From: Desulfurispora thermophila DSM 16022
GTDB taxonomy: Bacteria; Bacillota; Desulfotomaculia; Desulfotomaculales; Desulfurisporaceae
Direction of reading: 5' to 3'
Assembly: GCF_000376385.1 (NCBI RefSeq)
Contig: NZ_AQWN01000006.1
Coordinates: 124,001 to 188,000, forward strand
Length of the DNA stretch: 64,000 bases
Shown: one piece after another, positions 13,051 to 60,162 of the stretch
Numbering within the stretch: the first letter of the stretch is position 1
Layout of the letters: each line of letters starts with the position of its first letter
The notes under the pieces: model-generated
Database searches by the model: none
The model's input: only the letters and a program-made list of their open reading frames with translations
Told to the model about the DNA's origin: nothing
Position numbers and translations under genes: made by a program

Positions 13051-13090
13051 ATAAAAAATCAACCACTCCGCACTTTTACGAAATGGTTGA
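13051..13090 (-). terminator. Terminator of the cobalamin operon
   Basis: Minus-strand stem TCAACCA (13090-13084) with TGGTTGA (13065-13059), loop of 18 nt, followed by TTTTTTATTT. It lies 11 nt after the cbiC stop, so it ends the long cbi transcript. Confidence 0.75.
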
Positions 13091-13101
13091 CTGGTAAGAT
13101 G

Positions 13102-13722: not shown

Positions 13723-13726
13723 ATTG

Positions 13727-14101: not shown

Positions 14102-14946
14102 TCATTTTCACCACCAATATTGTTTTGCTCTGCTAATACACCCTGCCGGGCACCATGGTCGGGGTAGAGTTCCCCAACGGCGCGCAGCAAATCATCAACG
14201 TCCTGATAAACCCGCACCGGCCCGGCCTCGGGCGGGCGCTCGATTAATACCACGGGCAAACCCAGCTGACGGGCGGCGGCAAGCTTGGCCTCCTGCCCGC
14301 CGGCCGCTCCGCTTTCCTTGCTCACCACCACATCAGCCCGCCAGTCCCGGAAAAGGGCCAGGTTGAACTCCCGGCTGAACGGCCCCTGCGCAGCGATAAT
14401 TTGCCGGGCGGGGATCCCCAGGTCCAGCAAGCGGGCAATTGTTTGCGGGTCGGGCAGAACGCGCACAATCAGCCGCACCGGCGCCAGTTCGGTCGCGAAT
14501 ATGGACACCGTTTTGCTGCCCGTGGTTAAAAAAACCCTATCCCCCAGCACCCCGGCCAGACGGGCGGCCGAGTGATAATCGGGCACCCGGTGGACGGCTT
14601 GGTTCATGTCCGGCTCCTGCCGGGGACGGGAAAAACGCAGGCAAACGATTCCCATCCGTTGACAGGCCAGCACAGCCTCCCGGGAAACCTCCCGGGCATA
14701 GGGGTGGGTGGCATCCACCACCAAACGGATCCCCTTCACCTTGATCAGATCTGCCAGGCCATGGGCATCGAGACGGCCGCAGCGCACTTCCACCCGGCCG
14801 TTGACTTTCAGCTCCGGCGACATCTTCTCTTCCAGAGTGGCCTTCCCCAATGGCGTGGCCACACTAACCATGACCGGCAGGCCGTAAGCACAGAGACCGG
14901 CTAAAATCCGGAATGTTTCCGATGTGCCACCCAGCAGAAGGATCAT
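14098..14946 (-). CDS. cbiJ: Cobalt-precorrin-6A reductase CbiJ
   Basis: NAD(P)H-dependent reduction of cobalt-precorrin-6A to 6B. 282 residues; family hallmarks are the N-terminal ILLLGGTSETFRIL (3-15), DATHPYAREVS (about 79-89), and VFLTTGSKTV (about 138). Overlaps cbiH and cbiX by 4 nt each, so the three are translationally coupled. Confidence 0.95.
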   Translation of the reverse strand: MILLLGGTSETFRILAGLCAYGLPVMVSVATPLGKATLEEKMSPELKVNGRVEVRCGRLDAHGLADLIKVKGIRLVVDATHPYAREVSREAVLACQRMGIVCLRFSRPRQEPDMNQAVHRVPDYHSAARLAGVLGDRVFLTTGSKTVSIFATELAPVRLIVRVLPDPQTIARLLDLGIPARQIIAAQGPFSREFNLALFRDWRADVVVSKESGAAGGQEAKLAAARQLGLPVVLIERPPEAGPVRVYQDVDDLLRAVGELYPDHGARQGVLAEQNNIGGENE

Positions 14947-45230: not shown

Positions 45231-46154
45231 TTATTGCTCACGCTGGCTGAGGTACTTTTCCACCTCCACAGCGGCTATCGCACCATCAGCTACCGCGGTA
45301 ACCACCTGGCGCAAAGTTTTGTGCCGCACATCACCGGCAGCAAAAAGGCCCGGGCAGGAAGTGCGCATTTGCTCGTCGGTGATCACATAACCCTGCTCGT
45401 CTCTTTCCACCAGGTGAGCAATCATGCTTGTGCTGGGTTCATGCCCAACGTAGATGAAAACTCCATCCACTGGCAGTTCGCTCTGGCTGCCAGTTAGCAC
45501 GTCCTCCACCGTCACTGAACGCACCAGTTCGCTGCCGTTAATTTGTTTGACCACACTATTTAAAACAAACTGGATCTTATCGTTTTCCTGAGCCTTCTTT
45601 TGCACATATTTGGTAGCCCGCAGTTGGTCGCGACGGTGAATGACATAAACCTTGCTAGCAAATTTTGTTAAAAAGAGAGCTTCTTCCACGGCTGCATCCC
45701 CGCCACCAACAACGGCCACCACCTTATCCCGGAAAAATGCACCGTCGCAGGTAGCACAGTAGGATACGCCACGGCCGTGAAACTCCTTCTCACCCGGCAC
45801 CCCCAGGTAGCGGGGTTTTGCACCAGCAGCAAAGATCACCGCCCGCGCCCTGTAGTTTTGTTCATCAGCCGAAACAATGAAATCGTCTCCCTGTTTTTCC
45901 ACCCCGGAAACATAGGCGTAAACCATCTCCAGACCAAAGCGGCGAGCCTGTTTTTCCATCTGCATAGCCAGCTCGGGACCGCCAATGCCATTTTCAAAAC
46001 CCGGATAATTCTCAATCATTTCGGTACTGGCAGCCAGCCCGCCCGTCATCCCCATCTCCATCAAAACTGCCGACAGGTTGGCCCGGGCCGCATAGATACC
46101 GGCACTGAGGCCAGCCGGCCCCCCGCCAATAATAATCACATCATATTGCTTCAT
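45231..46154 (-). CDS. trxB: Thioredoxin-disulfide reductase
   Basis: Reduces thioredoxin with NAD(P)H. 307 residues: FAD-binding IIIGGGPAGLSAGIYAAR (7-24), redox pair Cys133/Cys136 in SYCATCDG, NAD(P)-binding VVGGGDAAVEEALFL (about 147-161) with HRRDQLRA, and C-terminal FAD motif GLFAAGDVR. HRRDxxRA is typical of NADPH-type low-molecular-weight TrxB, although the spacing cannot rule out a ferredoxin- or F420-dependent variant. No trxA next to it. Downstream of the AAA+ regulator, 82 nt away. Confidence 0.95.
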   Translation of the reverse strand: MKQYDVIIIGGGPAGLSAGIYAARANLSAVLMEMGMTGGLAASTEMIENYPGFENGIGGPELAMQMEKQARRFGLEMVYAYVSGVEKQGDDFIVSADEQNYRARAVIFAAGAKPRYLGVPGEKEFHGRGVSYCATCDGAFFRDKVVAVVGGGDAAVEEALFLTKFASKVYVIHRRDQLRATKYVQKKAQENDKIQFVLNSVVKQINGSELVRSVTVEDVLTGSQSELPVDGVFIYVGHEPSTSMIAHLVERDEQGYVITDEQMRTSCPGLFAAGDVRHKTLRQVVTAVADGAIAAVEVEKYLSQREQ

Positions 46155-46235: not shown

Positions 46236-47924
46236 TTACAGCAAATTGAGCTTCTTCATTTTATAGTACAAAGTGGAACGGGGTACCCCCAGCACCTTGG
46301 CCGCCCGGGAACGATTCCCGCCTGTTTGCTGCAACACACGGCTGATCAACTCCCTCTCCGCATGCTCGGTGGCTTGCCACAGTTTCGGCGGCCGGTCTGT
46401 GGCTAGTATTTCCCCTCCAGGGGAAAGATACACAGGCAGATCAGCAGGTTGCAAAACCTTCCCCTTTGATACGAGCACCATGTGCTCCACAGCATTGCGC
46501 AACTCACGCACGTTGCCCGGCCAGTCATAGCTGAGCAGGGCAGACATTAAAAGCGGGTGCCAGCCCTGAATTTCCTTTCCATGCTGATCAGCAAAATACT
46601 TGGCAAAGTATTGAAAAAGCTCTGGAATGTCCTCTTTGCGTTCCCGAAGGGGAGGTATGGACAGCACAACAACATTGAGCTGATAGTATAGATCTTCCCT
46701 CAATCTACCCCGGCTGTAGAGCGTAGCCAAATCCTCTGTGGTGGAAAAAATATAACGCACATCAACCCGGTGTACTTTTTCGTCGTAAGCCGAAACATAA
46801 CGCCCGTCACGCATTAACCGCAGTAATTTGTACTGCTGGGGAGCGGGCAAATCTTCCAGTGCACTGATGAACAAGGTCCCCCCGGACAGGTCGGCCAGCA
46901 TTCCGGGTGTCTGAGGGCCACCAAAAAGCAGTTCCTCCCACTGCCTTCCGCTCACTCCCGCACAGTCCAGGCGGGCAAAAGCAGCCTGACCGCGCCGGCT
47001 GGCCCGGTGCATGGTTTGGGCCAGCAGTTCCCGCCCGCTGCCCCGCTCACCCTTTATTACCACCGTAGCGTCAGTAGCAGCAATTTTCCTGGCCATAGCC
47101 AGAACTTCTTTCATTCCGCTGTGGCTACCCCGGATTTCCTCCCAGGGTTGGTTTTGTCCGGTAATTTGCCAAAGCCGCGCCTCCAGCTCCTGCAGACGGG
47201 CTGTGCGCAGATTAAGTTCCTGATTGAGCTGAACGGTTTCACTGATATCTCTTTCCACCGAAATGCCACCGATAATTTTGTCGCCCAGCTTTACAGGAGC
47301 GGCATTTATTAATACATGTCGCTCCGGGCAGGGATGGTGATAATTGGCTCGCACCACCTCATCATTGCGCATGACTTTGCTCACAACCAGATTGGAAAAA
47401 TAATCACTCAGTTTCTTGCCCACAATTTCCCGTGTACTGTAATTGTACATCTTTTCCGCCGCCTGGTTCCAACCCGCCACTCTGCCTGCAGAGTCCACTA
47501 TGCAAATCGCCTCATCCAGCAGGTTGAGCAATGTGTGCATTACACTCGCCTGCTCTTGCACTGTTTGCCAGAGTGCCCGCAGCACATGCTCCGAAGCAAT
47601 CACTCCCAATAATTCCTGTTCCCCGCCCACCAATAACGGCTGGCGTATCAACTCCACCAGCCAGGCTTCCAACTCTTGTTCCAGCACTTCCGGCGGCACC
47701 AGGCGGTAATTATCGCAAATGACGTTTTCCAGAGCATCTTCGGGCGAAACCTGTATGGTGTGCAAACGCAGAGGTGTAATCAGTCCGTGCACATACTGTT
47801 CTTTCACTACCAAAACTTTCTGCCGGCCGGCCAGCTGTCTGGCCTGCCGAATGTTGAGGCCCGTTGGCACAACCAGTACGGGCAACAAATAACCGGCCAG
47901 CCGGCCGGCCTTACTAGACAGCAT
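46236..47924 (-). CDS. PAS-AAA+-Fis regulator with degenerate ATPase domain and no GAFTGA loop
   Basis: 562 residues laid out like a sigma54 enhancer-binding protein: an N-terminal region resembling CBS domains (about 15-120), a PAS domain (about 130-230, ICIVDSAGRVAGWNQAAEKM), a linker helix, an AAA+ domain (about 262-490) and a Fis-type helix-turn-helix (NRSRAAKVLGVPRSTLYYKM). The AAA+ part is damaged in every functional motif: Walker A is GERGSGRE (Lys to Arg298), the GAFTGA sigma54-contact loop is deleted (LLFGGPQTPGMLADLSGGTL), and Walker B is GGTLFISALED (Asp/Glu to Ser354/Ala355). The later GRLREDLYYQLN and WPGNVRELRN are intact. It lies at the end of a Liv importer operon, 78 nt after livF. 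Probably a DNA-binding sensor that does not use sigma54 and does not hydrolyse ATP. Confidence 0.88.
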   Translation of the reverse strand: MLSSKAGRLAGYLLPVLVVPTGLNIRQARQLAGRQKVLVVKEQYVHGLITPLRLHTIQVSPEDALENVICDNYRLVPPEVLEQELEAWLVELIRQPLLVGGEQELLGVIASEHVLRALWQTVQEQASVMHTLLNLLDEAICIVDSAGRVAGWNQAAEKMYNYSTREIVGKKLSDYFSNLVVSKVMRNDEVVRANYHHPCPERHVLINAAPVKLGDKIIGGISVERDISETVQLNQELNLRTARLQELEARLWQITGQNQPWEEIRGSHSGMKEVLAMARKIAATDATVVIKGERGSGRELLAQTMHRASRRGQAAFARLDCAGVSGRQWEELLFGGPQTPGMLADLSGGTLFISALEDLPAPQQYKLLRLMRDGRYVSAYDEKVHRVDVRYIFSTTEDLATLYSRGRLREDLYYQLNVVVLSIPPLRERKEDIPELFQYFAKYFADQHGKEIQGWHPLLMSALLSYDWPGNVRELRNAVEHMVLVSKGKVLQPADLPVYLSPGGEILATDRPPKLWQATEHAERELISRVLQQTGGNRSRAAKVLGVPRSTLYYKMKKLNLL

Positions 47925-48002: not shown

Positions 48003-48719
48003 CTAGTTTTCCCCCAGATAAGCCTTGCGCACGGCCGGATCATTGGCCAACTGAGCAGCATTACCGGCAAGGACAACTTCCCCGGTTTCCAAAACATAAG
48101 CCCGGTTGGCAATAGAAAGGGCCATTCTGGCATTTTGTTCCACCAGCAATATGGTTGTCCCCTCCCGGTTAATTTCCTGAATAATATTAAAAATTTCCCG
48201 CACCAGCATGGGAGCCAGGCCCATGGAAGGTTCGTCCAGCAAAAGCAAGCGGGGACGGGACATGAGAGCCCGTCCTATGGCCAACATCTGCTGCTCCCCG
48301 CCGGACAATGTCCCCGCCAGTTGGTGCTGGCGTTCCTCCAAACGGGGAAAGCGCGCGAAAACTTTTCTTATATCAGCCCGGACTTCGCTGCTGCTGCGGC
48401 GACTGTAAGCACCCATCTCCAGATTTTCCAACACGCTCATCCGGGCAAAAACGCGGCGACCCTCCGGTACCTGGGAGATGCCCATGGCCACGATTTGGTG
48501 CGGCTGACACCGGTTGATAGGCCGCCCCTGCCAGGTGATGGTTCCCTGCTGGGGTCGCATCAACCCGGATATAGTCCGCAGGGTTGTACTCTTCCCGGCG
48601 CCGTTCGCTCCAATCAACGCTACGATCTCACCCTCCGCCACTTCACAATTAATGCCCTTGAGAGCCCGAATGGCCCCGTAATTGACATGCAAATCGGATA
48701 TCGTCAAGATCAACCGCAC
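48003..48719 (-). CDS. livF: Branched-chain amino acid ABC transporter ATPase LivF (copy 1)
   Basis: 238 residues, LivF type: Walker A GANGAGKSTTLRTISGL (about 37-53), signature LSGGEQQMLAIGRALM (about 140-155), Walker B LLLLDEPSMGLAP and the LivF ending. Overlaps livG by 10 nt; GTG start with AGGAGG 4-5 nt upstream. Last transporter gene of the first Liv cluster (livJ-H-M-G-F, 52611 to 48003). Confidence 0.96.
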   Translation of the reverse strand: MRLILTISDLHVNYGAIRALKGINCEVAEGEIVALIGANGAGKSTTLRTISGLMRPQQGTITWQGRPINRCQPHQIVAMGISQVPEGRRVFARMSVLENLEMGAYSRRSSSEVRADIRKVFARFPRLEERQHQLAGTLSGGEQQMLAIGRALMSRPRLLLLDEPSMGLAPMLVREIFNIIQEINREGTTILLVEQNARMALSIANRAYVLETGEVVLAGNAAQLANDPAVRKAYLGEN

Positions 48720-49483
48720 ACCACCTCCTGGCCCAGATAAGCAGCAATCACCGCCGGATCGCGCTGGATTTCCTCCGGTGTACCGGCAGCAATCCGCCGC
48801 CCGTAGTCCAATACCGTAATCCGGTCGGAAAGGCTCATGACGAATTTCATGTCATGTTCCACCAAAAAAATGGTGATCCCCATATCCTGTATTCTACGGA
48901 TCATTTGCATCAGTACAAGCTTTTCCTGCGGATTCATACCGGCGGCGGGTTCATCCAGCAGCAGGAGCTGGGGCCGGGTAGCCAGGGCCCGGGCAATCTC
49001 CAACCGGCGCTGTTCACCATAGGAGAGGCTTTTCGCGTATTCATCCTTCTTATCTGCCAGTTCCATGATTTCCAGAGCTTCCAGAGCGCGGGCGGTAATT
49101 TCCTCTTCCTCCCGCTTCACCCGCGGCGAGCGCAGGATGGCCCCCCACATACCGCCCCGGCTGCGGCAATGACAACCTATTTTAACATTATCCAGCACAC
49201 TGAGCCGCCCAAAGAGCCTGATATTTTGAAAGGTGCGGGCTATACCCAGCGATGTTATGATATGGGGACTCAGGCCGACAATCGACCGCCCCTGAAAAAG
49301 AATCCTGCCCGAAGTAGGCCTGTATATGCCTGTTACCAGGTTAAAAACGGTACTCTTGCCCGCCCCGTTGGGACCAATCAGAGCCCGGATTTTTCCTTTT
49401 TCAATTTTCATGCTGACATCGTCTACCGCCTGCAGACCGCCGAAGTTAATACTCACCCTGTCCAGTTCCAGCAAATAGGCCAT
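48710..49483 (-). CDS. livG: Branched-chain amino acid ABC transporter ATPase LivG (copy 1)
   Basis: 257 residues: Walker A GPNGAGKSTVFNLVTG (about 37-52), FQNIRLFGRLSVLDNV, signature LSYGEQRRLEIARAL, Walker B LLLLDEPAAGMNPQE and the C-terminal LivG segment RIAAGTPEEIQRDPAVIAAY (20). GGAGAG precedes the ATG. Confidence 0.96.
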   Translation of the reverse strand: MAYLLELDRVSINFGGLQAVDDVSMKIEKGKIRALIGPNGAGKSTVFNLVTGIYRPTSGRILFQGRSIVGLSPHIITSLGIARTFQNIRLFGRLSVLDNVKIGCHCRSRGGMWGAILRSPRVKREEEEITARALEALEIMELADKKDEYAKSLSYGEQRRLEIARALATRPQLLLLDEPAAGMNPQEKLVLMQMIRRIQDMGITIFLVEHDMKFVMSLSDRITVLDYGRRIAAGTPEEIQRDPAVIAAYLGQEVVCG

Positions 49484-49509
49484 TTTTTCACTCTCCGTTG
49501 CTCATTAAT

Positions 49510-50415
49510 TCAGGAGGATGATATGCTGCGGGCCGAAGCTCTCTCCAGCCGTTTGCTCCGGTAACGCTTTATGACGCGGGAGAGATCCACACCACCCAGC
49601 AGGCCGTTGGGGCGGAAGATCATCATCACCACCAGCAGCAGGCCATAAATCATCATCCGGTACTCGGCAATGAACCGTAAAAATTCGGGAGCCAGGGTAA
49701 GGACGACAGTTCCCAGTATGGTACCCGGAATACTGCCCAGACCGCCCAGCACGACGAAATTCAAGATTTCAAAAGAGCGGGCGAAACCAAAATCGTTGGG
49801 GTTGAGGTATTGCAACAGGTGAGCATAAAGCCCCCCGGCCAGACCGGCAAAAAAAGCACCGATGGCAAAGGCCTGCACCTTGTATATGGTTGTGTTGATA
49901 CCCATAGCGGCCGCGGCAATTTCGTCCTCCCGAATGGCCAGCAAAGCCCGCCCGAAGCGGGAATACTGAATCCTGTACATACAGTATACCGTAATGGCCA
50001 CCAGCAGGTAGACAACAAATACATTGGTGTAACGGGGAATGCCGGCCAGCCCGATGGCACCACCGGTAATTTGCAAATTGGTGAACACAACCAGGACGAT
50101 TTCCCCGAATCCCAGCGTAGCGATGCCCAGATAGTCACCCGTCAGCCGCAACGTGGGAAAACCAATCAGCACGCCCCAGATACAGGCTACACATCCCCCG
50201 GCCAGCAGCGATAAGGCAAAGGGCAAATGCATTTTCAAAGTGAGAAGTGCCGCCGTATAGGCACCGATGCTCATAAAAGCAGCATGGCCGAAAGAAAGCT
50301 GACCGGTAACACCGGTAATCAAATTAAGCCCCAGTGCCAGGATGATATATATGCCCAGCAGATTGGCCACCTGCAGGTAATAGGGGTTGATATTCTGTGT
50401 AAACATATCCAGCAT
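49510..50415 (-). CDS. livM: Branched-chain amino acid ABC permease LivM (copy 1)
   Basis: About 301 residues, eight to nine membrane helices, LivM motifs GLNLITGVTGQLSFGHAAFM in part (about 30-48) and the ATPase-docking region with REDEIAAAAMGINTTIYK (about 164-181). The start is ambiguous between GTG at 50424 and ATG at 50415; the latter has AGGTGG 5 nt upstream and is used. livH stops at 50425. Confidence 0.94.
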   Translation of the reverse strand: MLDMFTQNINPYYLQVANLLGIYIILALGLNLITGVTGQLSFGHAAFMSIGAYTAALLTLKMHLPFALSLLAGGCVACIWGVLIGFPTLRLTGDYLGIATLGFGEIVLVVFTNLQITGGAIGLAGIPRYTNVFVVYLLVAITVYCMYRIQYSRFGRALLAIREDEIAAAAMGINTTIYKVQAFAIGAFFAGLAGGLYAHLLQYLNPNDFGFARSFEILNFVVLGGLGSIPGTILGTVVLTLAPEFLRFIAEYRMMIYGLLLVVMMIFRPNGLLGGVDLSRVIKRYRSKRLERASARSISSS

Positions 50416-50424
50416 GTCTTCCAC

Positions 50425-51297
50425 CTACACTTTCCGCTGCACCGGTCGTCCCAATAGCCCGGTGGGACGGAAAAGCAGCACCAGAATGAGCAACGTAAAA
50501 GCAACGGCATCTTTGTAGTCTCCATATCCGGCAGCAATGCCCAGTACTTCGGCAATCCCCAGGAAAATGCCGCCCAGCATGGCGCCCGGAATACTGCCAA
50601 TGCCCCCCAGCACAGCAGCGCAAAAAGCTTTCAAACCGGCCTGCACGCCCATGAGCGGAAACACCGAGTTAAAATACATCCCCACCAGCACACCGCCGGC
50701 AGCCGCCAGCAGGGAGCCCAGCGCGAAGGTAAAGGATATTACCCTGTTGACGTTAATGCCCATCAAAGCCGCAGTATCGTAATCTTCAGATGCCGCCCGC
50801 ATGGCCTTGCCTATTTTTACATACTTAACTATCAGATGCAAACCGACCATGAGAAAACTGGCCACTACCAGAATAATGATCTGTACCCGGGACACCTGCA
50901 CAGGTCCCAGCTTGTACAGGGCATCCTCCACAACCTGGGGGAAAGCCTGCGGTTGAGGACCAAAAATAACCGTCATCAGAGTTTGCAAAAAGATACTTAC
51001 GCCAATGGCGGAAATAAGCGGTGCCAGTCTGTCGGAGCGGCGCAAAGGGCGGTAAGCTATTCGCTCGGCAGTCACGCCCAGAGCCATGCACACCAGCATG
51101 GCTAAAAACATGGCCACAAAAATATTTACTTTTAAAATAGTAATAGCCAGTACTCCGACAAAAGCCCCCACCATGAAGATCTCCCCGTGGGCAAAGTTAA
51201 TCAACTGAATAATTCCATAAACCATGGTATAGCCCAGGGCAATCAGGGCATAGGTTGCCCCCAGGGTGAGGCCGTTGATGAGCTGCTGCCAGAACAT
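50425..51297 (-). CDS. livH: Branched-chain amino acid ABC permease LivH (copy 1)
   Basis: 290 residues, about eight membrane helices. Family motifs LGATYALIALGYTMVYGIIQ (about 13-32), INFAHGEIFMVGAF and RAASEDYDTAALMGINVNRV (about 178-197). The ATG at 51297 has GGGGTGA 5 nt upstream; residues further up the frame coincide with the intercistronic hairpin and look non-coding. Confidence 0.95.
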   Translation of the reverse strand: MFWQQLINGLTLGATYALIALGYTMVYGIIQLINFAHGEIFMVGAFVGVLAITILKVNIFVAMFLAMLVCMALGVTAERIAYRPLRRSDRLAPLISAIGVSIFLQTLMTVIFGPQPQAFPQVVEDALYKLGPVQVSRVQIIILVVASFLMVGLHLIVKYVKIGKAMRAASEDYDTAALMGINVNRVISFTFALGSLLAAAGGVLVGMYFNSVFPLMGVQAGLKAFCAAVLGGIGSIPGAMLGGIFLGIAEVLGIAAGYGDYKDAVAFTLLILVLLFRPTGLLGRPVQRKV

Positions 51298-51349
51298 AAT
51301 TGTCACCCCAATAATTATCTGCTGTGCAAAGAGGTAAAAAAACAGCGGT

Positions 51350-51378
51350 GCGGCCATTACGGCTACCGCAATGGCCGC
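51350..51378 (-). other. Intercistronic hairpin between livJ and livH (copy 1)
   Basis: Perfect 9-bp stem GCGGCCATT (51350-51358) with AATGGCCGC (51370-51378), loop of 11 nt, no T run. It lies between the livJ stop (51406) and the livH start (51297), in the same position as the hairpins in the other two importer operons. Confidence 0.7.
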
Positions 51379-51405
51379 TCTGCATATACTTATTATCAAC
51401 AATGC

Positions 51406-52611
51406 TTACTGCGCGGTAACCGGAATTACCGCCTTCACAGCCCACTTCTGCTCCTTCACTTCCAGTAAGAAGACCGGGCTTTTTACCGGTTCGCGGTTGG
51501 GCCCGAAAGAAATGGTACCCGTTACACCCTGCCAGTTCTGGGTTTTGGCCAGTTCATTTTTGAAGACGGACGGATCAGCCGAATTTGCTTTCTTAATTGC
51601 ATCGGCAATCAGCATGACAGCATCGTACCCCTGGGCAGAGAACATATCGGGCAAGGCATTGTTATTGGCCTTTTGATAGGCCTGCACAAAAGCCTTGGTC
51701 TTTTCACCGGCATTGTTCAAGTCAGGATAAAATCCCGTGTAGACCATGCTCCCTTCCACAGCGTTGCCGCCCAGCTCCCAGAGCTTGGGAGAAAGCAGGC
51801 CGTCACCACCCACCATGACTTGCTTCAAGCCCTGCTTGCGCACTTCTTTCATGAATAAGCCGCCTTCGGTGTAGTAGCCGGTGAAGACAATGCCGTCCAC
51901 AGCCTTTTGCTTGATATTGGTGACTTGAGCGCTGAAGTTCTGGTCACCGTCTTTGATGCTCTGTTCAATAACAATCTGGGCACCGTATTTGGCCAAAGCA
52001 TCCTTGAAAATCTTGGTCAGGCCCACGCTATAGTCGTTGTTGACCGAGGTGACCAGGGCCACTTTTTTCCAGCCCAGCGTCTCCACACAGTATTTGGTTA
52101 CAGCCGGAGCCGCCAGAGCATCTAGAAGCGTATCGCGGAAAATATAATCACCAATCTCCACTACCCCTGGCCCCACAGCACCGGCCGAAAGCAGCACCAC
52201 TTTGCTCTGCTGGGCAATATTGCCGGCCACTTTGGTAATCCCGGTCGTGGGGTCACCCACAATAGCAACCACCTTGTTGTTGTTAATCAACTTCTGCGTC
52301 ACTGTGGCCGCCTCACTGGGGTTACTGCGGTGGTCATCTTCAATAATTTCCACTTTCTTACCCAGCAGGCCGCCGGCGGCATTAATGTCATCCGCCGCCA
52401 TCTTCATACCTTTCAGTGTCTCAATGCCATAACTGGCATGGTTGCCTGTCTTGGCCCCCAAAAAGCCGATTTTGATCGTCTCTCCGGAAGGAGTTGCGCT
52501 CTGCTCCTGGGCAGGTTTGCCTTTGTCCGCCTGTCCACCACCACAACCCGTTGCTACCAGAACCAGCGCCAGCATGGCGATTGCCAGCAGCCACCATGTT
52601 CTCCTCATCAT
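51406..52611 (-). CDS. livJ: Branched-chain amino acid-type ABC substrate-binding lipoprotein LivJ (copy 1)
   Basis: 401 residues. Lipoprotein signal MMRRTWWLLAIAMLALVLVATGC with lipobox Cys about residue 23, then the periplasmic-binding type I fold (IKIGFLGAKTGNHASYGIET, ending with VFLLEVKEQKWAVKAVIPVT; each 20). The frame is open 9 codons further up but GGAGG fits the ATG at 52611 (11 nt). First gene of the copy 1 importer. Ligands of this family include Leu/Ile/Val, other amino acids, amides and urea. Confidence 0.93.
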   Translation of the reverse strand: MMRRTWWLLAIAMLALVLVATGCGGGQADKGKPAQEQSATPSGETIKIGFLGAKTGNHASYGIETLKGMKMAADDINAAGGLLGKKVEIIEDDHRSNPSEAATVTQKLINNNKVVAIVGDPTTGITKVAGNIAQQSKVVLLSAGAVGPGVVEIGDYIFRDTLLDALAAPAVTKYCVETLGWKKVALVTSVNNDYSVGLTKIFKDALAKYGAQIVIEQSIKDGDQNFSAQVTNIKQKAVDGIVFTGYYTEGGLFMKEVRKQGLKQVMVGGDGLLSPKLWELGGNAVEGSMVYTGFYPDLNNAGEKTKAFVQAYQKANNNALPDMFSAQGYDAVMLIADAIKKANSADPSVFKNELAKTQNWQGVTGTISFGPNREPVKSPVFLLEVKEQKWAVKAVIPVTAQ

Positions 52612-52949
52612 TTCTTCTTTTGCCTCCTTTACTATCATTTCATAATTTTTGCACTTATCTAACTATTCTGTGCCCCCTTCTCTTTCACCTCCTGGTAGTT
52701 CATAAAGCCACAAGCATTAACACAGGTATGAATTCAACACATTTGATATAAAGTCCTGCCTTGTGTTTAACTTTTTGTCAGCATGGCACATGTATACATG
52801 TCCAAATTTCCGGCACCAGTAAAAACATTTGGACAAATCAATTAAATTTCGAAAGGAAGAAAAGCAAATAAAAAAAAGCAAGAAATTCCCCGATGAGGTT
52901 TCTTGCCCCGAAAATTATTGAAATAAAAAGCTGTTTATCCTGGCATGCC
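52612..52949. other. Regulatory region between the two Liv operons
   Basis: About 340 nt. It holds the terminator of copy 2 (52867-52907) and a cluster of inverted repeats upstream of livJ copy 1: a 14-bp perfect palindrome ACATGTATACATGT (52788-52801) and a 9-bp inverted repeat TGTCCAAAT (52799-52807) / ATTTGGACA (52827-52835). No convincing -35/-10 pair was found. Nothing gene-like. Confidence 0.55.
52867..52907 (-). terminator. Terminator of the second Liv operon
   Basis: Minus-strand stem GCAAGAAA (52907-52900) with TTTCTTGC (52886-52879), loop 13 nt, followed by TTTTTTTTATTT. It lies 43 nt after the stop of livF copy 2. Confidence 0.9.
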
Positions 52950-53663
52950 CTAACCAACTTCGCCCAGATATGCGCTGCGCACCTGTGGGTTGCTCTGGAC
53001 CTCGGCAGCGCTGCCGCTAATCACAATCCGCCCCGTTTCCAACACATAGGCCCGGTGGGCTACCTGCAAGGCCATAAAAGCGTTTTGCTCCACCAGCAGA
53101 ATGGTAGTGCCCTGCCGGTTGATGTCCTGAATAATGGCAAATATTTCTTCCACCAGCAGCGGGGAAAGCCCCATGGAAGGCTCGTCCAGGATCAGCAGTT
53201 GCGGCTTGCTCATCAATCCACGTCCCATGGCCACCATTTGCTGTTCCCCGCCGGAAAGTGTACCGGCCAGCTGTTTCTGTCTCTCCCGCAGGCGGGGAAA
53301 TCGTTCCATCACCATCTCCAGGCTGGCGGAAATTTCGCCCTTGTCCTGCCGCGTGTAAGCACCCATGAGCAGGTTTTCATATACAGTTAAGTTGGGGAAG
53401 ATCATCCGCCCCTCGGGCACGTGGGAGATGCCCAGGCGTACAATCTTGTGCGCCGGGACATTGTCAATCCTCTGGCCCTGAAAAACCACCTCTCCGGCTT
53501 TGGGACGGATTAGCCCGGAAATGGTGCGCATGGTCGTGGATTTGCCGGCTCCGTTCGCTCCGATCAGGGTTACTATCTCGCCTTTTTCCACCTGAAAGGA
53601 AACCCCGTGCAGGGCCCGGATGGCACCGTAATATACTTCCAGATTGTTTACCTCCAGCATCAT
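52950..53663 (-). CDS. livF: Branched-chain amino acid ABC transporter ATPase LivF (copy 2)
   Basis: 237 residues; Walker A GANGAGKSTTMRTISGL, signature LSGGEQQMVAMGRGLM, Walker B LLILDEPSMGLSP. Overlaps the livG stop by 4 nt. Clearly related to, but diverged from, the copy at 48003-48719, so the two clusters are an old duplication or separate acquisitions, not a recent repeat. Confidence 0.96.
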   Translation of the reverse strand: MMLEVNNLEVYYGAIRALHGVSFQVEKGEIVTLIGANGAGKSTTMRTISGLIRPKAGEVVFQGQRIDNVPAHKIVRLGISHVPEGRMIFPNLTVYENLLMGAYTRQDKGEISASLEMVMERFPRLRERQKQLAGTLSGGEQQMVAMGRGLMSKPQLLILDEPSMGLSPLLVEEIFAIIQDINRQGTTILLVEQNAFMALQVAHRAYVLETGRIVISGSAAEVQSNPQVRSAYLGEVG

Positions 53664-54433
53664 GCCATCGCCGCCCCCTTCCCCAGATATGCTTCCAGCA
53701 CCACCGGGTTATTGCGAATTTCCACCGGCAAACCCTGGGCAATAATCTGTCCGAAGTCCATAACCACCAGACGTTGACACAAATTCATCACCATACCCAT
53801 CTGGTGTTCAATCAACAATACAGTCAAATTGAATTGTTCCTTTATGCTTTTGATCAAACCCACCATATTGCTCACTTCGGACGGATTCATACCCGCAGCC
53901 GGCTCATCCAGTATCAACAGTTTGGGCTCCAGAGCCAGCGCCCGGGCTATTTCCAAACGACGCTGGGCCCCGTAGGGCAAATTGGCCGCCAAATCCAGCG
54001 CTCTGTCGGCCAGCCCCAGCACCTCCAGCAATTCCATAGAACGGCTGGTAATTTCCACTTCCCTGTTCTTGAACCTGGGAGTGCGAAAGATGGCATCAAA
54101 AAGTCCGTACTGCACCCGAAAGTGAAAAACTGTCCGCACATTGTCCAGCACCGTGTTGCCTTTGAAGAGACGTATATTTTGAAATGTCCGGGCGATTCCC
54201 GCCTGACACACCTTGTAAGGGGGAATACCCGACATATCCTGGCCCAGGAAAAAAACTTTACCTTCACTCGGCTGATAAATGCCCGTGATCAGGTTGAACA
54301 CAGTCGTTTTGCCCGCTCCATTGGGTCCAATCAAACCCACTATCTCGCCGGGCTCAATAGTCATGCTGAAATTGCTGACCGCCTTCAGGCCGCCGAAGTA
54401 CTTGGAAACGTTTTTTAGCTCAAGAACTGACAT
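53660..54433 (-). CDS. livG: Branched-chain amino acid ABC transporter ATPase LivG (copy 2)
   Basis: 257 residues, Walker A GPNGAGKTTVFNLITG, FQNIRLFKGNTVLDNV, signature-like LPYGAQRRLEIARAL, Walker B LLILDEPAAGMNPSE. AAGGAGG precedes the ATG; overlaps livM copy 2 by 14 nt. Compared with copy 1 the residues around the signature are PYGAQ instead of SYGEQ, both seen in LivG proteins. Confidence 0.96.
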   Translation of the reverse strand: MSVLELKNVSKYFGGLKAVSNFSMTIEPGEIVGLIGPNGAGKTTVFNLITGIYQPSEGKVFFLGQDMSGIPPYKVCQAGIARTFQNIRLFKGNTVLDNVRTVFHFRVQYGLFDAIFRTPRFKNREVEITSRSMELLEVLGLADRALDLAANLPYGAQRRLEIARALALEPKLLILDEPAAGMNPSEVSNMVGLIKSIKEQFNLTVLLIEHQMGMVMNLCQRLVVMDFGQIIAQGLPVEIRNNPVVLEAYLGKGAAMA

Positions 54434-55433
54434 GGGTGACCTCCTTATCCTTCTGCCGCCAGGCGGTCAGCGACTGCGGCACCAGGGCGGCCAATTCTTT
54501 GCCGCTGAATATGCCCTGCGGACGCAAAATAATGGATATGATTAGGATCAGTGCATAAATAACACCCCGGAAGTCAATAAAGGATTCACCCAGCACAAAG
54601 CGCAATCCTTCCAGCAAAAACACCCAGGCCACAGCAGTGACCACCGTACCGGTCATGCTGCCCAAACCGCCCAGCACCACAATGAGCAAAAAGTCGAAAG
54701 ATTTTAAGAAGTCAAAACTGCTGGGGTGTAAAAACGGATAACGGTGCGCATAAATGCCCCCGGCCAAACCGGCCAGCATACAACCCAACACAAAGGACAA
54801 CACTTTAATTCTGGTGGTGTTGATACCCATCACGTCGGCGGCAATCTCGTCCTCCCGCACTGCGGTACACGCCCGGCCGTAGCTGGAGAAAATGAAATTG
54901 CGCGTGAAGATGATGGCCAGCACGGTCAGCAAGAATATCAAGTCAAAACCAGCCGACTGGGGTACACCGGACATCCCGGTCGCGCCACCCAATGGTGGGA
55001 AGAACTTGCTGGAATTGTCCATGCCCACCTTGACAATGATCCCGAACCCTAAAGTAGCAATACCCAGATAATCCGAGCGCAGACGCAAGATGGGTAACCC
55101 CACTAGCAAAGCCAGCAGGCCGGCAACCAACATCCCTAAAAGCAAGGAAATAGCCAAAAATAAATAATTATCAGCACTGCCGTAGAGCTTGTCCAAAAGA
55201 CCGGCGCTATAAGCACCCAGGCCGTAAAAAGCCGCATGGCCCAGGGAGAATTGACCGGTAAAACCGTAAATTATGCTCAAACCCAGGGCTCCAATCGTGG
55301 CAATCAGCGCCTGATCCAGCACCCTCTGCCAGTAGTCGTTCATCAGGCCGGACAGTTGCAGCACCTTAATCAAGGCGTAAAAGGCGACAGTACCCAGTAG
55401 TAGGAGCCAAGTAGCTGATTTTTTTTGCGCCAT
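54420..55433 (-). CDS. livM: Branched-chain amino acid ABC permease LivM (copy 2)
   Basis: 337 residues, somewhat longer than copy 1, nine or so membrane helices, with IIYGFTGQFSLGHAAFYGLG (about 53-72) and VREDEIAADVMGINTTRIK (about 210-228). The ATG at 55433 has GGGGGGG 5 nt upstream and is used instead of the open frame to 55466, which overlaps livH. Confidence 0.94.
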   Translation of the reverse strand: MAQKKSATWLLLLGTVAFYALIKVLQLSGLMNDYWQRVLDQALIATIGALGLSIIYGFTGQFSLGHAAFYGLGAYSAGLLDKLYGSADNYLFLAISLLLGMLVAGLLALLVGLPILRLRSDYLGIATLGFGIIVKVGMDNSSKFFPPLGGATGMSGVPQSAGFDLIFLLTVLAIIFTRNFIFSSYGRACTAVREDEIAADVMGINTTRIKVLSFVLGCMLAGLAGGIYAHRYPFLHPSSFDFLKSFDFLLIVVLGGLGSMTGTVVTAVAWVFLLEGLRFVLGESFIDFRGVIYALILIISIILRPQGIFSGKELAALVPQSLTAWRQKDKEVTHVSS

Positions 55434-55446
55434 ATACTTCCCCCCC

Positions 55447-56331
55447 TTACACCTTGTCCGGCTCATTCTTGCCCAGAATGCCGCTGGGCCTTATTAATAG
55501 TACAAGAATTAAAATAAAGAAGGCAATCGCATCCCTGAGCTGAGAAGAAAGAAAGGCCGAGGTAAGTGTTTCCACCTGTCCCATAATAATAGCACCCAGC
55601 ACGGCACCCGGAATAATGCCGATGCCACCCAGCACCGCAGCCGTAAAAGCCTTCAGACCGGGCATAATGCCCATAAAGGGATGAATTTGCGGATAGGCAA
55701 TGGCATAGAGAACCCCGCCCACCGCTGCAAAAGCCGAACCAATGGCAAAGGTAATGGAGATGGTGTTATCCACGTTCACACCCATAAGTCTGGCCGCATT
55801 GTGGTCTACGGAAACTGTCCGCATGGCCATACCGATCTTGGTCCGGTAGACAATGAACTGCAGAGCCAGCAGCATGAGCACCACTACTACAGCAATCATC
55901 ACCTGAATGTTGGTGATGGTTACACCAAACACCTCCCATCGCACTTCCTCGAACGGACGCTGCACAACGCGAAAATTGGGACCAAAAACAAATTTCAAGC
56001 TGCCAAAATACTCCAGAAAAAGCGAAACACCCAGCGCACTGATCAGGGCGGCAATCTTGGGCGCGTAACGCAAGGGCCGGTAGGCAATGCGCTCAATAGT
56101 CACACCCAGGATGGCACACACCACCACCGCGTTTACAATAGCTACGGGCAACGGCAGCCCCCAGTGCTGAAAGCCAAAATAGCCGATAAAGGCCCCCACC
56201 ATGAACACGTCACCATGGGCAAAGTTGATCAGCTTAACCACACCGTAAACCATGGTATAACCCAGGGCAATCAGGGCGTACATCAAACCCAGCTGCAATC
56301 CGTTGATGATCTGGTCCAAGACGTGTTCCAA
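55447..56331 (-). CDS. livH: Branched-chain amino acid ABC permease LivH (copy 2)
   Basis: 294 residues, about eight membrane helices; LGLMYALIALGYTMVYGVVK (about 13-32), INFAHGDVFMVGAF and RTVSVDHNAARLMGVNVDNT (about 175-195). TTG start at 56331 with GGGAGA about 8 nt upstream; earlier codons coincide with the intercistronic hairpin. Confidence 0.93.
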   Translation of the reverse strand: MEHVLDQIINGLQLGLMYALIALGYTMVYGVVKLINFAHGDVFMVGAFIGYFGFQHWGLPLPVAIVNAVVVCAILGVTIERIAYRPLRYAPKIAALISALGVSLFLEYFGSLKFVFGPNFRVVQRPFEEVRWEVFGVTITNIQVMIAVVVVLMLLALQFIVYRTKIGMAMRTVSVDHNAARLMGVNVDNTISITFAIGSAFAAVGGVLYAIAYPQIHPFMGIMPGLKAFTAAVLGGIGIIPGAVLGAIIMGQVETLTSAFLSSQLRDAIAFFILILVLLIRPSGILGKNEPDKV

Positions 56332-56365
56332 ACCTGAATCTCCCCCCAGCGCAAAATAATGGGCA

Positions 56366-56391
56366 GGGAGGGTGCCGGGCCACACCCTCCC
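56366..56391 (-). other. Intercistronic hairpin between livJ and livH (copy 2)
   Basis: Perfect 9-bp GC-rich stem GGGAGGGTG (56366-56374) with CACCCTCCC (56383-56391), loop of 8 nt, no T run on the minus strand, lying between the livJ stop (56407) and the livH start (56331). Confidence 0.72.
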
Positions 56392-56406
56392 CGCAAGTGA
56401 TAACCG

Positions 56407-57576
56407 TTACGGGGTAACAGTAGCAACGTACTTATAAGTTTTATCAGGTTGCACCTGCAGGATAACAGCAGCTTTAATCGGGTTACCATCCTTGTCAATG
56501 GTAATTTTGCCACTCACAGCGGGGAAGTCCTTGGTATTCTGCAGAGCTTCCTTAATCTTTTCAGGGTCGTTGCTGTTGGCCGTCTTGATGGCGTTCAGCA
56601 TCAGGTTGGTGGCGTCGTAGCCCAGGGTGGCCAGCGCATCGGGCACGCTGCCGTACTTGGCCTTGTACTCTTCCACAAACTTCTTCACTTCGGGCCGCGG
56701 ATCGTCAGCCGAGTAGTGGTTGGTGAAGTAACCGCCGGCCATAGTGGCAAAGTCCAGATCCTTGGGCGAATCCCAGCCGTCGCCGCCCAGGAAGATGGCC
56801 TTAATGCCCTTCTCGCGAGCCTGCTTGCCAATCAGACTGACCTTCTGATAATAGTCGGGCAGGTAGAGAATATCCGGGTTTTTGGCTGCAATCTTGGTCA
56901 ACACCGCGCTGAAGTCGGTGTCGTCCTTGGAGTAAGCCAGAAACTCAACAACCTGGCCGCCGCCCTTTTCAAAGCTTTCCTTGAAAACATTGGCTAACCC
57001 GATGGTATAGTCATTACCCTGGTCATACAGCACAGCCGCTGTCTTCTTTTTCAGATTTTCCAGAGCGAATTTGGCCGCTACAGCGCCCTGGAAGGGGTCG
57101 ATGAAGCAGGCCCGGAAGGCATACTCCTTGCGTTTGCCATTGTCCACGGTCACTTTGGGGTTGGTGGCCGTGTTGGTCAGCATAGGAATCTTCTGGCTGT
57201 TGCACAGCTCACTGACCGGGATGGTGGTTTTGGATGTGAGCGGACCAATAATGCAATTGACCTTGTCCTGCGAAATCAACTTGGTGGCTACGTTAACAGC
57301 TTCGGTGGCGTCATTGCGGTCATCGGCAATCACATACTCAATTTTGTAGTCGCCCGCTTTCATGCCGGCCTGTTCCAGGGCCAGTTTGAAAGCATTCTGG
57401 GTGGATTCACCAAATGTCTTCACATCACCCGTCAGAGGGGTAATCAAACCGATTTTTACAACCTTTTCGCCGCCTTCACCCGCACTTTTATTGCTGGCCG
57501 CCCCACCGCAGCCTGTTACCACCAGAGCTACCGCCAGCAAAGCTACCAGTAATAAATAAACCTTTCTGTTTTTCAC
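56407..57576 (-). CDS. livJ: Branched-chain amino acid-type ABC substrate-binding lipoprotein LivJ (copy 2)
   Basis: 389 residues. Lipoprotein signal MKNRKVYLLLVALLAVALVVTGC (Cys about 23), type I periplasmic-binding fold (VKIGLITPLTGDVKTFGEST, TIPVSELCNSQKIPMLTNTA, KAIFLGGDGWDSPKDLDF). The GTG at 57576 is chosen because AAGGAGG lies 7 nt before it; the ATG two codons earlier is too close. First gene of the copy 2 operon. Confidence 0.94.
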   Translation of the reverse strand: MKNRKVYLLLVALLAVALVVTGCGGAASNKSAGEGGEKVVKIGLITPLTGDVKTFGESTQNAFKLALEQAGMKAGDYKIEYVIADDRNDATEAVNVATKLISQDKVNCIIGPLTSKTTIPVSELCNSQKIPMLTNTATNPKVTVDNGKRKEYAFRACFIDPFQGAVAAKFALENLKKKTAAVLYDQGNDYTIGLANVFKESFEKGGGQVVEFLAYSKDDTDFSAVLTKIAAKNPDILYLPDYYQKVSLIGKQAREKGIKAIFLGGDGWDSPKDLDFATMAGGYFTNHYSADDPRPEVKKFVEEYKAKYGSVPDALATLGYDATNLMLNAIKTANSNDPEKIKEALQNTKDFPAVSGKITIDKDGNPIKAAVILQVQPDKTYKYVATVTP

Positions 57577-57877
57577 ACACATACCTCCTTAAAAGTTCGC
57601 AATCGCCAAAAAACCGCAATACTCCAGATTGTACCCTATACGCTTGCTGTTTTTCACCTCCCTGTCTTTGTCCCACCTGCTAATCTTCCCCGTCCACTTA
57701 AAACGCGGCCTCTAGCAAAAGCGGGAAAACATACTGCAAGTCACAAGATTAACAGTTGTTAATAATTCAACAAATATAACAAAATTCCTGCTACTTAAGA
57801 CATGCTCCCATAATTGATTAACTAATTATAATTTATCGTCCTGATATTACCAAAAATCCATCTAATGTTAACATTTA
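57577..57877. other. AT-rich leader region of the copy 2 Liv operon
   Basis: About 300 nt, very AT-rich beyond 57720. Contains the promoter at 57825-57853 and, downstream of it, a leader of about 240 nt in which no riboswitch, T-box or leader peptide was recognised. Nothing gene-like. Confidence 0.5.
57825..57853 (-). promoter_or_regulatory. Probable SigA promoter of the copy 2 Liv operon
   Basis: Minus strand TTGGTA (57853-57848), 17-nt spacer, perfect TATAAT (57830-57825). It would give a leader of about 240 nt before livJ copy 2. Confidence 0.5.
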
Positions 57878-58480
57878 TTAACAAATATAGTTTCTAATTT
57901 TTAGTTCCACCCCGTAGCGATTTGCTATACATTGACATTCTGCCAGATCAACACCGGGCCAGTTTACCACAGACAATACCACCCTGGGTATTAAACCTGC
58001 GCATTCTTCTATAAAACTCAACATAGCTTGATATGCTTTTTCTTTATAGAACGGCCGGCATATTTTTATATACTCTTCCGGTCTATGAGCATTCAAACTA
58101 ATATTGATGCATTCCACGTTACCGAACAGTGTCCTGGCCAGATCCCCGTTATACCAGAGCCGTACCTGGCCATTGGTATTAATTCTCACTTTACCCCCCT
58201 TCTCTTTAATCACTCCAGCTACCTGCCCCACCAACTCGGGACGGAGCAAGGGTTCGCCATAACCACAAAAAACAACTTCCTCATACCGGGTGGGATCTCC
58301 TATTCTTTGCACCAGCTCGGCAAAGCCCGGCTCGCGGCTGAGCCAGAGATTGTAACCCACTCCCCTTTGACTCTGCCGGATACAAAAAACGCAATTGTTG
58401 GTGCAGCGGTTGGTTATGTTGAGATACAAATTATTACCAATTTGGTAGACAAAGTTTTCACCCGCCGGCTGTTTTTGCAT
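57878..58480 (-). CDS. Radical SAM protein, TatD-associated type
   Basis: 200 residues. The radical SAM cluster motif is CTNNCVFC (about 24-31), preceded by YQIGNNLYLNITNRC and followed by VFCGYGEPLLRPELV (about 69-83, the GxGEP SAM motif) and RINTNGQVRLW. These match the TatD-linked radical SAM family of Clostridia; its reaction is unknown and no tatD gene is beside it here. The ATG at 58480 has AAAGGA 7 nt upstream. Two copies of a 16-bp repeat lie just upstream. Confidence 0.85.
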   Translation of the reverse strand: MQKQPAGENFVYQIGNNLYLNITNRCTNNCVFCIRQSQRGVGYNLWLSREPGFAELVQRIGDPTRYEEVVFCGYGEPLLRPELVGQVAGVIKEKGGKVRINTNGQVRLWYNGDLARTLFGNVECINISLNAHRPEEYIKICRPFYKEKAYQAMLSFIEECAGLIPRVVLSVVNWPGVDLAECQCIANRYGVELKIRNYIC

Positions 58481-58618: not shown

Positions 58619-59005
58619 GTGGAAAACAAACCGGGAGTCAGTTTAAGCATTGCTGCCATTTTCAAGGGTTTACTCTACACATTTGCCACCATTTTACTGG
58701 GCACCATCATTTTGGCCATCCTTTTCTTTCTCACCAACTGGCCGGAAAGCTACCTGTATTATGCCGGTCTCTTCATACTGACCATAGGCTGCGCCACAGG
58801 GGGTTTTACCGCCGCCCGGCAAAGCGGCCAGCGCGGGCTGGCCCACGGGCTGGCTGTAACCTTGCTGGCCTTGCTGCTCATCTGGTTTTTGGCCCTGTCC
58901 CTCTGGCCGGGCGATTTATCTTACCGGAGCTGGCTGGGAAGGCTTGTCGCCTGCGCCCTGGGAGGCAGCGCCGGTGGCATTGCCGGTGTGGGAAAGGCCC
59001 GCTAG
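58619..59005 (+). CDS. TIGR04086-family membrane protein (YrzE-like)
   Basis: 128 residues with four hydrophobic segments. The pattern (an N-terminal GLLYTFATILLGTIILAILF, then LFILTIGCATGGFTAARQSG, RGLAHGLAVTLLALLLIWFL and a glycine-rich end) fits the TIGR04086/YrzE family of small Firmicute membrane proteins, function unknown. GTG start with GGAGG 10 nt upstream. Its stop overlaps the end of the convergent phosphatase gene by 4 nt. Confidence 0.8.
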   Translation: MENKPGVSLSIAAIFKGLLYTFATILLGTIILAILFFLTNWPESYLYYAGLFILTIGCATGGFTAARQSGQRGLAHGLAVTLLALLLIWFLALSLWPGDLSYRSWLGRLVACALGGSAGGIAGVGKAR

Positions 59006-60162
59006 TGATGCTCAACAATAACTTCCTTGCCATATGTTTTCAGCAGTTCGACCAAATCGTCAATCACCCTTTGCTTATAAGCAAAAAGAGATGGTATCTG
59101 CGGTGCTAGCTGAGCCGGATTTACGGCTGTACCAACAAGGAAGTGTATCTTATCCGCCCATAAGAGTTGCATCACCAACCTGGACGCTCCATCACGACAG
59201 CCGGACAAATTTTGCATTTTGGCATTTTGTCGCAAAAGTTCCAGCGCATAGGCCAGTGTCAGCGTACCTTCCGTCACCAGGTCAATGCCCGGCAAAATGC
59301 CCAGCGGGGGTACCCGGCTATCGGTAGATGACAGATCTACCAGCACTTCCTGCCCCAGGAAGCGCCCCACCATATTACCCGTACTGCCCCCGCAAACTAT
59401 TTTCCGCCCGCCGGAGTGCAAAAGCTTTTCCACGACCTCCCGGTCCCGTGTGGTATCGGCCGGCGGTCCCACCAGCAGGGTGAGCAAGCGGGGCAGGCGT
59501 GCTTTCACCACTACAACAGAAGCATCGTCACCGGGTTTTCCACCATACAGGTTGTGGCAAAGGCTGACAATCTCTCCCACCCAGGCGCCGGCATCCTTGT
59601 CACTTTCTCCCAGCTGACACAAAAAGCTGCTCAAGCGTTCGTGTCCCCAGCCCATATTGAATACTCCGCCAATTCCGGCATGCAGTATACCGTCACTGAC
59701 CAGAACAATCCAGTCGCCGTCCTCCAGCGTGAAGTAGGCTTCCGCCACTTTTTTATCGCTGATCACCCGTTCCTGTCGCTCAATGCGGCGCAAACATCCA
59801 GCACGGCCCACAATGGCCTGCGGCGTGTCATATTCAGCCAAATAAACCTGTCCATCTTCCCGGATACTCAGAATAGCAAAAGTGCTGTATGCCAGATGGC
59901 GCACCTTGCAAATCGGCAGGGTATAGAGCAATGTTTCTATAACCTCGTCCACTTTGCCCCCCATTTTGAACATGGTGGAAGCGGTTTTCACGGTTAAACA
60001 GGAGAGAATATTGGCCTTCACGCCGCTGCCCAGCCCATCGGAAAGGACAACAATCTTGCCATCGACAGTGGGAACAACTTCTACGCTATCGCCGCACAGC
60101 TCCTCGCCCGCTTTGGTCAATTGCTGCCAGGCCACATCCAAAAAATAGCGCATAACTCTCAC
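59002..60162 (-). CDS. SpoIIE-type PP2C serine phosphatase linked to the sensory hydrogenase
   Basis: 386 residues. The first 210 form a SpoIIE/PP2C-like domain (VVLSDGLGSGVKANILSCLT about 38-57, VLVSDGILHAGIGGVFNMG about 153-171, KPGDDASVVVVK about 210-221; the metal-binding Asp residues are present). The remaining 165 residues are of unknown fold with VCGGSTGNMVGRFLG. Its GTG overlaps the stop of the PAS hydrogenase-like gene upstream (GTGA), and such a phosphatase next to a PAS-bearing [FeFe] hydrogenase is a known arrangement in anaerobes, read as hydrogen sensing passed to protein phosphorylation. Target unknown. Confidence 0.85.
   Translation of the reverse strand: MRVMRYFLDVAWQQLTKAGEELCGDSVEVVPTVDGKIVVLSDGLGSGVKANILSCLTVKTASTMFKMGGKVDEVIETLLYTLPICKVRHLAYSTFAILSIREDGQVYLAEYDTPQAIVGRAGCLRRIERQERVISDKKVAEAYFTLEDGDWIVLVSDGILHAGIGGVFNMGWGHERLSSFLCQLGESDKDAGAWVGEIVSLCHNLYGGKPGDDASVVVVKARLPRLLTLLVGPPADTTRDREVVEKLLHSGGRKIVCGGSTGNMVGRFLGQEVLVDLSSTDSRVPPLGILPGIDLVTEGTLTLAYALELLRQNAKMQNLSGCRDGASRLVMQLLWADKIHFLVGTAVNPAQLAPQIPSLFAYKQRVIDDLVELLKTYGKEVIVEHH

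Follow-up and report, generated by a model that had tools for sequence, protein, structure and literature searches.

An AAA+ regulator encoded directly downstream of a livKHMGF importer operon in Desulfurispora thermophila DSM 16022, here called REG, is probably a former proline-type sigma54 activator that now serves as a DNA-binding regulator of the liv operon and depends on neither sigma54 nor ATP hydrolysis. The preliminary description of the window (the whole analyzed stretch of 64,000 nucleotides) had already pictured a DNA-binding sensor freed from ATP use beside the Liv importers, and our comparison agrees with this picture in that REG appears tied to the liv importer, does not look like a sigma54 activator, and very likely works without hydrolyzing ATP. 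The gene and the domains of its product are arranged as follows:

46236..47924, minus strand: REG, a PrdR-type regulator with a degenerate core (562 aa, ATG start; order CBS pair, PAS, AAA+, lid, Fis HTH)
47541..47903, minus strand: N-terminal CBS-pair domain of REG (residues about 8-128; AlphaFold model compared with the PDB)
47232..47540, minus strand: PAS domain of REG (residues 129-231; PF13426/PF00989; 16/18 invariant columns retained)
46419..46646, minus strand: AAA+ lid of REG (residues 427-502; PF25601; 12/12 invariant columns retained)
46239..46364, minus strand: Fis-type HTH of REG (PF02954, 4e-16; 12/12 invariant columns; recognition helix PRSTLYYKM, identical in orthologues)

Pfam profiles detect the PAS domain, the Sigma54_activat AAA+ domain, the lid, and the Fis HTH, and the invariant columns listed above bear out the earlier impression that HTH and PAS are well kept. 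A "CBS-like" input had also been suspected, and although a Pfam search of REG itself gave no CBS match at E 0.1, the AlphaFold model of residues 1-130 resembles CBS-pair structures in the PDB, and REG orthologues do give CBS matches. Profiles and model together recover the CBS-PAS-AAA+-Fis architecture of PrdR, the regulator of proline reductase, which is also the best full-length NCBIfam match of REG (NF041552; 382.5 bits over 34-558), with a score that does not reach the PrdR equivalog cut-off of 795 bits. Homology to the AAA+ domain is clear from a PF00158 score of 113 bits (cut-off 20.2), and in a comparison within the genome, REG scores 116 bits against 219-265 bits for the 20 other sigma54 activators encoded in the same genome, which also contains an intact rpoN and whose nearest intact paralogue of REG shows about 32-38% identity. 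The frame is intact over all 562 aa, as the preliminary description had emphasized, with a GC3 of 0.59; REG bears no pseudogene signature because its GC content per codon position is the same as in neighboring genes.

What distinguishes REG is the state of the motifs that drive ATP hydrolysis and contact sigma54:

47022..47051, minus strand: degenerate Walker A of REG, GERGSGRELL (K298R)
46851..46883, minus strand: degenerate Walker B of REG, GGTLFISALED (D354S, E355A)
46896..46925, minus strand: in-frame deletion site of the GAFTGA loop (L1) in REG (residues 334-343, FGGPQTPGML)
46674..46712, minus strand: arginine-finger segment of REG, RGRLREDLYYQLN (R409 retained; second arginine replaced by Q415)

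Intact relatives carry GESGTGKEL, GGTLFLDEIG, and FGYExGAFTGAxxxGKxG at the corresponding motifs, and SGGTLFISALED together with the shortened stretch EELLFGGPQTPGML of REG occupies 46851-46937. Loss of the Walker A lysine, the Walker B acids, and the GAFTGA loop, all claimed earlier, can thus be confirmed by coordinates (47022-47051; 46851-46937). The accompanying claim of a well-kept arginine-finger region holds for R409 and fails for the second arginine finger, which is gone as well (YYRL to YYQL).

We defined 103 invariant columns from 16 non-redundant intact homologues and treated Walker A through sensor 1 as the "core" (48 columns inside, 55 outside). REG retains 51 of the 55 columns outside the core versus 23 of the 48 inside (Fisher 4.7e-7), and a homologue in genome G011 of family f12 behaves similarly with 51/55 outside versus 29/48 inside (p 1e-4), whereby 15 of the 19 core positions lost in G011 are lost in REG, too (p 0.003). 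Judged by these columns, the losses of REG are restricted to the ATPase/sigma54 core in a pattern unlike random decay. Of the features that characterize sigma54-dependent enhancer-binding proteins (bEBPs), REG shows the AAA+ homology and lacks the GAFTGA loop, the Walker A lysine, and the Walker B Asp-Glu pair; it does combine the features of TyrR/VpsR-type regulators, i.e., homology to bEBPs, a defective GAFTGA, and a retained DNA-binding domain. The motif comparison supports the view that REG is unable to serve as a sigma54 activator, and its capacity for ATP hydrolysis has very likely gone. The AAA+ fold as such is predicted by AlphaFold (pLDDT about 88), and the model matches the structures of FleQ, LuxO, and VpsR with Z 25-28 (VpsR Z 26.9).

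REG forms the end of a gene string that begins with livK1:

51406..52638, minus strand: livK1, substrate-binding protein (PF13458), first gene of the livKHMGF-REG string
50425..51402, minus strand: livH1 (comparison of liv loci)
49510..50424, minus strand: livM1 (comparison of liv loci)
48710..49483, minus strand: livG1 (comparison of liv loci)
48003..48719, minus strand: livF1 (65-77% identity to the livF beside orthologues)
45231..46154, minus strand: trxB, downstream neighbor of REG (TIGR01292)

The window contains two complete livKHMGF-type operons in tandem (48003-52638 and 52950-57582), each with its own substrate-binding protein. Control of trxB by REG, which had been suggested as well, was abandoned because the gap upstream of trxB contains no operator and because trxB lies next to liv without any regulator between them at locus L106.

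Our search for orthologues covered 113 genomes of the order (a search of the class comprises the same 113), among which the genome of REG (G000) is the sole member of family f1. Around 35 of the 113 genomes encode a homologue of REG's kind with ~40% identity over nearly the full length, and a scan of the genome contigs found no closer copy. A livKHMGF-regulator string with the regulator as the gene after livF is found in families f3, f5, f9, f11, and f12, just as in the window, and every one of these livF-downstream orthologues is intact except that of G011. Phylogenetically, REG belongs to the clade of regulators whose genes directly follow livF (support 88/81 to 93) on a long terminal branch of 1.3-1.7. 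The alignment that had been proposed as a check on the preliminary description therefore did find relatives with all three motifs intact at the same locus; the conclusion that had been attached to such an outcome, namely that REG is merely decayed, does not follow because the losses are confined to the core, because further liv-linked homologues have lost the loop, and because one of these is encoded in a genome whose rpoN is a relic (see below). Genomes of f11 likewise have two liv operons, which flank another PrdR-like regulator that is intact, and a second PrdR-like paralogue belonging to a separate clade is encoded immediately upstream of livK in f3/f11 (L090, L091, L096-L099, L101).

The surroundings of the intact orthologues point to their target. 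In f3 and f11, four genes come next, coding for a 2Fe-2S protein, an FAD protein similar to SoxA/HcnB, a 4Fe-4S protein, and another FAD protein similar to SoxB, and the closest solved relative of both FAD proteins is PDB 1y56 (chains A and B), which is labeled "sarcosine oxidase" and "hypothetical protein PH1363" in the PDB and which we take to be the L-proline dehydrogenase complex of Pyrococcus horikoshii. The same dehydrogenase genes adjoin P5C dehydrogenase in f9, and it is putA that adjoins the regulator in f5, f16-g25/g43, and f18. Many intact loci have strong -24/-12 boxes between the regulator and its target, e.g., TGGCATGGATTTTGCT (L096) or TGGCATATGTATTGCT (L151). Because intact orthologues adjoin proline-oxidizing genes with such boxes, the ancestral protein was very probably an importer-encoded sigma54 activator of proline oxidation. 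In REG's own genome, the dehydrogenase complex is absent: The FAD subunit OxB is encoded in 31 genomes of the order and absent from G000 and G011. A single copy of putA in G000 is located elsewhere (L142, G000:C11:26001-46000, 11235-14297), where its upstream 600 bp lack a sigma54 box and no regulator or activator adjoins it, unlike putA in f5, f16, and f18. Within the order, a degenerate regulator goes along with missing proline-dehydrogenase genes at p 0.003 in a simple count that ignores kinship. Upstream of G000 putA, we also noticed a TTGTATACA motif that resembles the palindrome ACATGTATACATGT beside the livK1 operator described below (window about 52788-52801).

REG is not the only liv-linked homologue without GAFTGA. 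The G011 regulator has lost this loop and changed the Walker B D to N, with Walker A retained, and is followed by trxB and a metallo-hydrolase gene as in the window (L102). Further downstream of this trxB (L102 6028-8522) are genes that resemble methylmalonyl-CoA epimerase, carboxyltransferase, and biotin carrier as read from their sequences; in the window, this position is taken by meaB. A phylum-wide search additionally found family f52, represented by three genomes from one genus each, in which GAFTGA is lost in 3/3 homologues, the YYQLN change is present, and Walker A and B are intact. All three f52 regulators are encoded directly upstream of livKHMGF and have cores that are 64-70% identical, and their loss must be separate from that of REG because they form a clade of their own (support 98). 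A single loss shared by REG and G011 does not agree with the tree, which separates the two, yet the AU test does not reject a topology that unites them (p 0.117), so that one or two losses may have occurred within the order.

The five genomes whose liv-linked regulator is devoid of GAFTGA (G000, G011, and the three of f52) have in common that none encodes the dehydrogenase complex (0/5), and putA is lacking in 4/5; Pro_dh is absent from G011 and the three f52 genomes, and OxD from all five. In one of them, G146 of f52, rpoN is a relic: Three short RpoN matches lie close together (about 200 bp) in the interval flanked by whiA and gap, the place at which the assemblies of G222 and G187 contain full-length rpoN genes. 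The fragments (L179 4623-4820, G146:C10) come from a genome rated 100% complete and are in themselves an instance of sigma54 loss in a clostridial lineage. Despite this relic, the frame of the G146 regulator is open over 571 aa; since only a relic of rpoN is left there, this homologue, going by its genome, cannot need sigma54. G011 and f52 back the loss of sigma54 dependence and not that of ATP use because they retain Walker A. We tentatively suggest a more general course in which liv-linked proline-type regulators may leave sigma54 repeatedly, i.e., the target operon is lost, the loop is dropped, and an importer regulator remains, once after rpoN had been destroyed, with REG ending up as a nucleotide-free AAA+ scaffold that is read by a CBS-PAS sensor.

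PrdR sites have been reported as TGT-N10-12-ACA (PMC6615313), and the oxidoreductase operon of f11 is preceded by tandem TGTCA-N7-TGACA and TGTnCA-N6-TnnACA sites that lie 19-20 bp apart. An operator matrix trained on f3/f11 target sites only ranks a site upstream of livK among the best 1-3 per 18-19 kb locus at 5/5 f9/f12 loci (four f9 genera and G011), which none of the permuted matrices achieved (0/2000), and it places no such top-ranked site at control loci. Because the f3/f11 operator recurs upstream of livK, liv is probably a target of the regulator in f9/f12, with a promoter that lacks a -24/-12 box; near liv of f52, the operator motif was not found. Two candidates were obtained upstream of livK1 in the window:

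52799..52815, strand not assigned: putative REG operator, 17-mer TGTCCAAATTTCCGGCA (third best of 64 kb; permutation p 0.03)
52818..52835, strand not assigned: putative REG operator, 18-mer AGTAAAAACATTTGGACA (rank 2-4 of 64 kb; permutation p 0.05)

These sites lie 19 bp apart as in f11, have one good half each, and are found about 160-200 bp upstream of livK1; the segment 52799-52835, part of the repeats to which the preliminary description had pointed, forms an inverted repeat TGTCCAAAT-N19-ATTTGGACA of which the 17-mer is the outer arm. The match is weaker than in relatives and its statistics are modest (p 0.03-0.05). Another site upstream of livK2 (57866-57883) fits the loose pattern but drops to rank 73 with a stricter matrix and is therefore not counted as an operator. 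No sigma54 -24/-12 box was found in the 500 bp upstream of livK1 and no sigma70 consensus in 52500-53100, and a sigma54 promoter as the cause of the liv linkage was discarded given that the window has none and that no relative scores 10 or above in front of livK. In f9, livK is preceded by a TTGACA-N17/18-TAAAAT sigma70 promoter, which at most loci is followed by the operator at a distance of 116-165 nt. At f9 loci L100, L103, L104, L109, L144, L152, and L154, a leader of roughly 100 nt comes after this conserved promoter and ahead of livK; it contains a terminator-like element GGATC...GATCCGaaAGCC...GGATCTTTTTT and might be a leader RNA or attenuator; an Rfam search of the window and the f9 leaders gave no match. 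The same loci carry a box AATTTTCAGAAAAT that resembles the CodY consensus and lies some 60-100 nt downstream of the operator, ahead of livK; the window does not show this box.

We envisage an ancestor that would have been a PrdR-type, proline-responsive sigma54 activator encoded together with livKHMGF and switching on a nearby proline-oxidizing operon. This operon may have been lost or moved off sigma54 control in REG's lineage, and REG would then have given up the sigma54-contact loop and the ATPase while retaining its CBS and PAS sensors, the HTH, and the AAA+ fold as a scaffold between sensor and HTH. We infer that REG binds the TGT...ACA operators upstream of livK1 and thereby tunes the liv-REG operon in response to a signal inside the cell, of which proline or a related compound would be the likeliest because REG is akin to PrdR; perhaps adenine nucleotides are sensed via the CBS pair. 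Repression or road-blocking is slightly preferred over activation by analogy to f9 because the operator there lies downstream of a strong sigma70 promoter.

The latter arrangement also bears on a variant with the same core, in which REG activates a sigma70 promoter of liv like VpsR or the NtrC of Rhodobacter capsulatus. Known GAFTGA-less relatives do so (PMC10274813; PMC3162934), and 160-200 bp upstream of livK1 would be a normal activator position, but the f9 operator lies downstream of its strong sigma70 promoter and the REG sequence does not allow a contact surface for RNA polymerase to be pinpointed, which makes this variant somewhat less likely. REG could instead be a decaying leftover that has lost its target and drifts toward a pseudogene, functionless and merely co-transcribed with liv, as one might suspect from the intact homologues at the same locus, the long terminal branch, and the absent proline-dehydrogenase complex. 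We consider this improbable since the losses affect one functional module with all HTH and lid invariants in place, the frame stays open for 562 codons and its composition by codon position is normal, G011 has suffered parallel losses at the same positions, and a GAFTGA-less copy has been retained across three f52 genera. Even less credible to us is a dominant-negative modulator that damps activators by forming mixed AAA+ rings with an intact one or by competing for its sites: The genome does offer 20 intact activators and rpoN, lid, R409, and overall AAA+ fold are retained, and a Fis-type HTH is common to close paralogues, but no PrdR-like partner is encoded near REG, the best intact paralogue is only distantly similar, and the G146 homologue survives without sigma54, where there would be nothing to damp.

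The reading that we prefer, a former sigma54 activator turned regulator of liv, has precedents. REG shares the CBS-PAS-AAA+-Fis order with PrdR of Clostridioides difficile, a proline-responsive sigma54 activator with TGT-N10-12-ACA operators (PMC6615313), and differs from it by the lack of Walker A lysine, Walker B acids, and GAFTGA, by its linkage to a liv importer, and by a score below the equivalog cut-off. Its closest parallel is the change from PhhR to TyrR in enteric bacteria, where GAFTGA was lost once the sigma54-dependent catabolic target had gone, with DNA binding retained and sigma70 promoters regulated (PMC1173090); TyrR has different input domains and belongs to a different family, and in REG, Walker A, Walker B, and one arginine finger are lost as well. 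VpsR of Vibrio cholerae acts without GAFTGA at sigma70 promoters and is said not to need ATP (PMC10274813), and it resembles REG in the missing GAFTGA and the same AAA+ fold but activates biofilm genes, has a receiver domain, and responds to c-di-GMP. NtrC of Rhodobacter capsulatus and Caulobacter has L1 with GAFTGA deleted and uses sigma70 promoters (PMC10274813), though these proteins are response regulators that, unlike REG, still need ATP binding or hydrolysis. TyrR, DhaR, HupR, VpsR, and YplP have been listed as GAFTGA-less (PMC3162934), and among 490 activators of Clostridiales, 355 have an exact GAFTGA and 100 a variant, leaving 35 with neither by subtraction (PMC6615313). The G011 and f52 homologues are like REG in liv linkage, loss of GAFTGA, and the missing proline-dehydrogenase complex (those of f52 also in YYQLN) but differ by a Walker A that is intact in all and a Walker B that is intact in f52 and changed from D to N in G011. 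Since TyrR, VpsR, and other GAFTGA-less regulators precede it, REG is no new kind of sigma54-independent regulator; the novel aspects are that the family is of PrdR type and linked to liv, that the loss recurs, that one case comes with an rpoN relic, and that both Walker motifs have gone.

The change from a sigma54 activator to a plain regulator is known from few, mostly proteobacterial cases (TyrR, VpsR, NtrC) and is hard to follow stepwise. Here, one family at one locus displays graded states from intact proteins with a sigma54 target over loss of the loop (f52) and loss of loop plus Walker B (G011) to loss of everything (REG), with one member in a genome that has an rpoN relic, and the order of losses and any residual role of ATP are therefore directly testable. 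For annotation, this means that the Pfam label of a sigma-54 interaction domain need not indicate a sigma54 activator. Elsewhere in the window (59002-61892), the gene for an iron-hydrogenase-like protein that carries a PAS domain at its C-terminus precedes one for a SpoIIE-type phosphatase, and the two products together look like a hydrogenase-derived sensor with phosphatase output.
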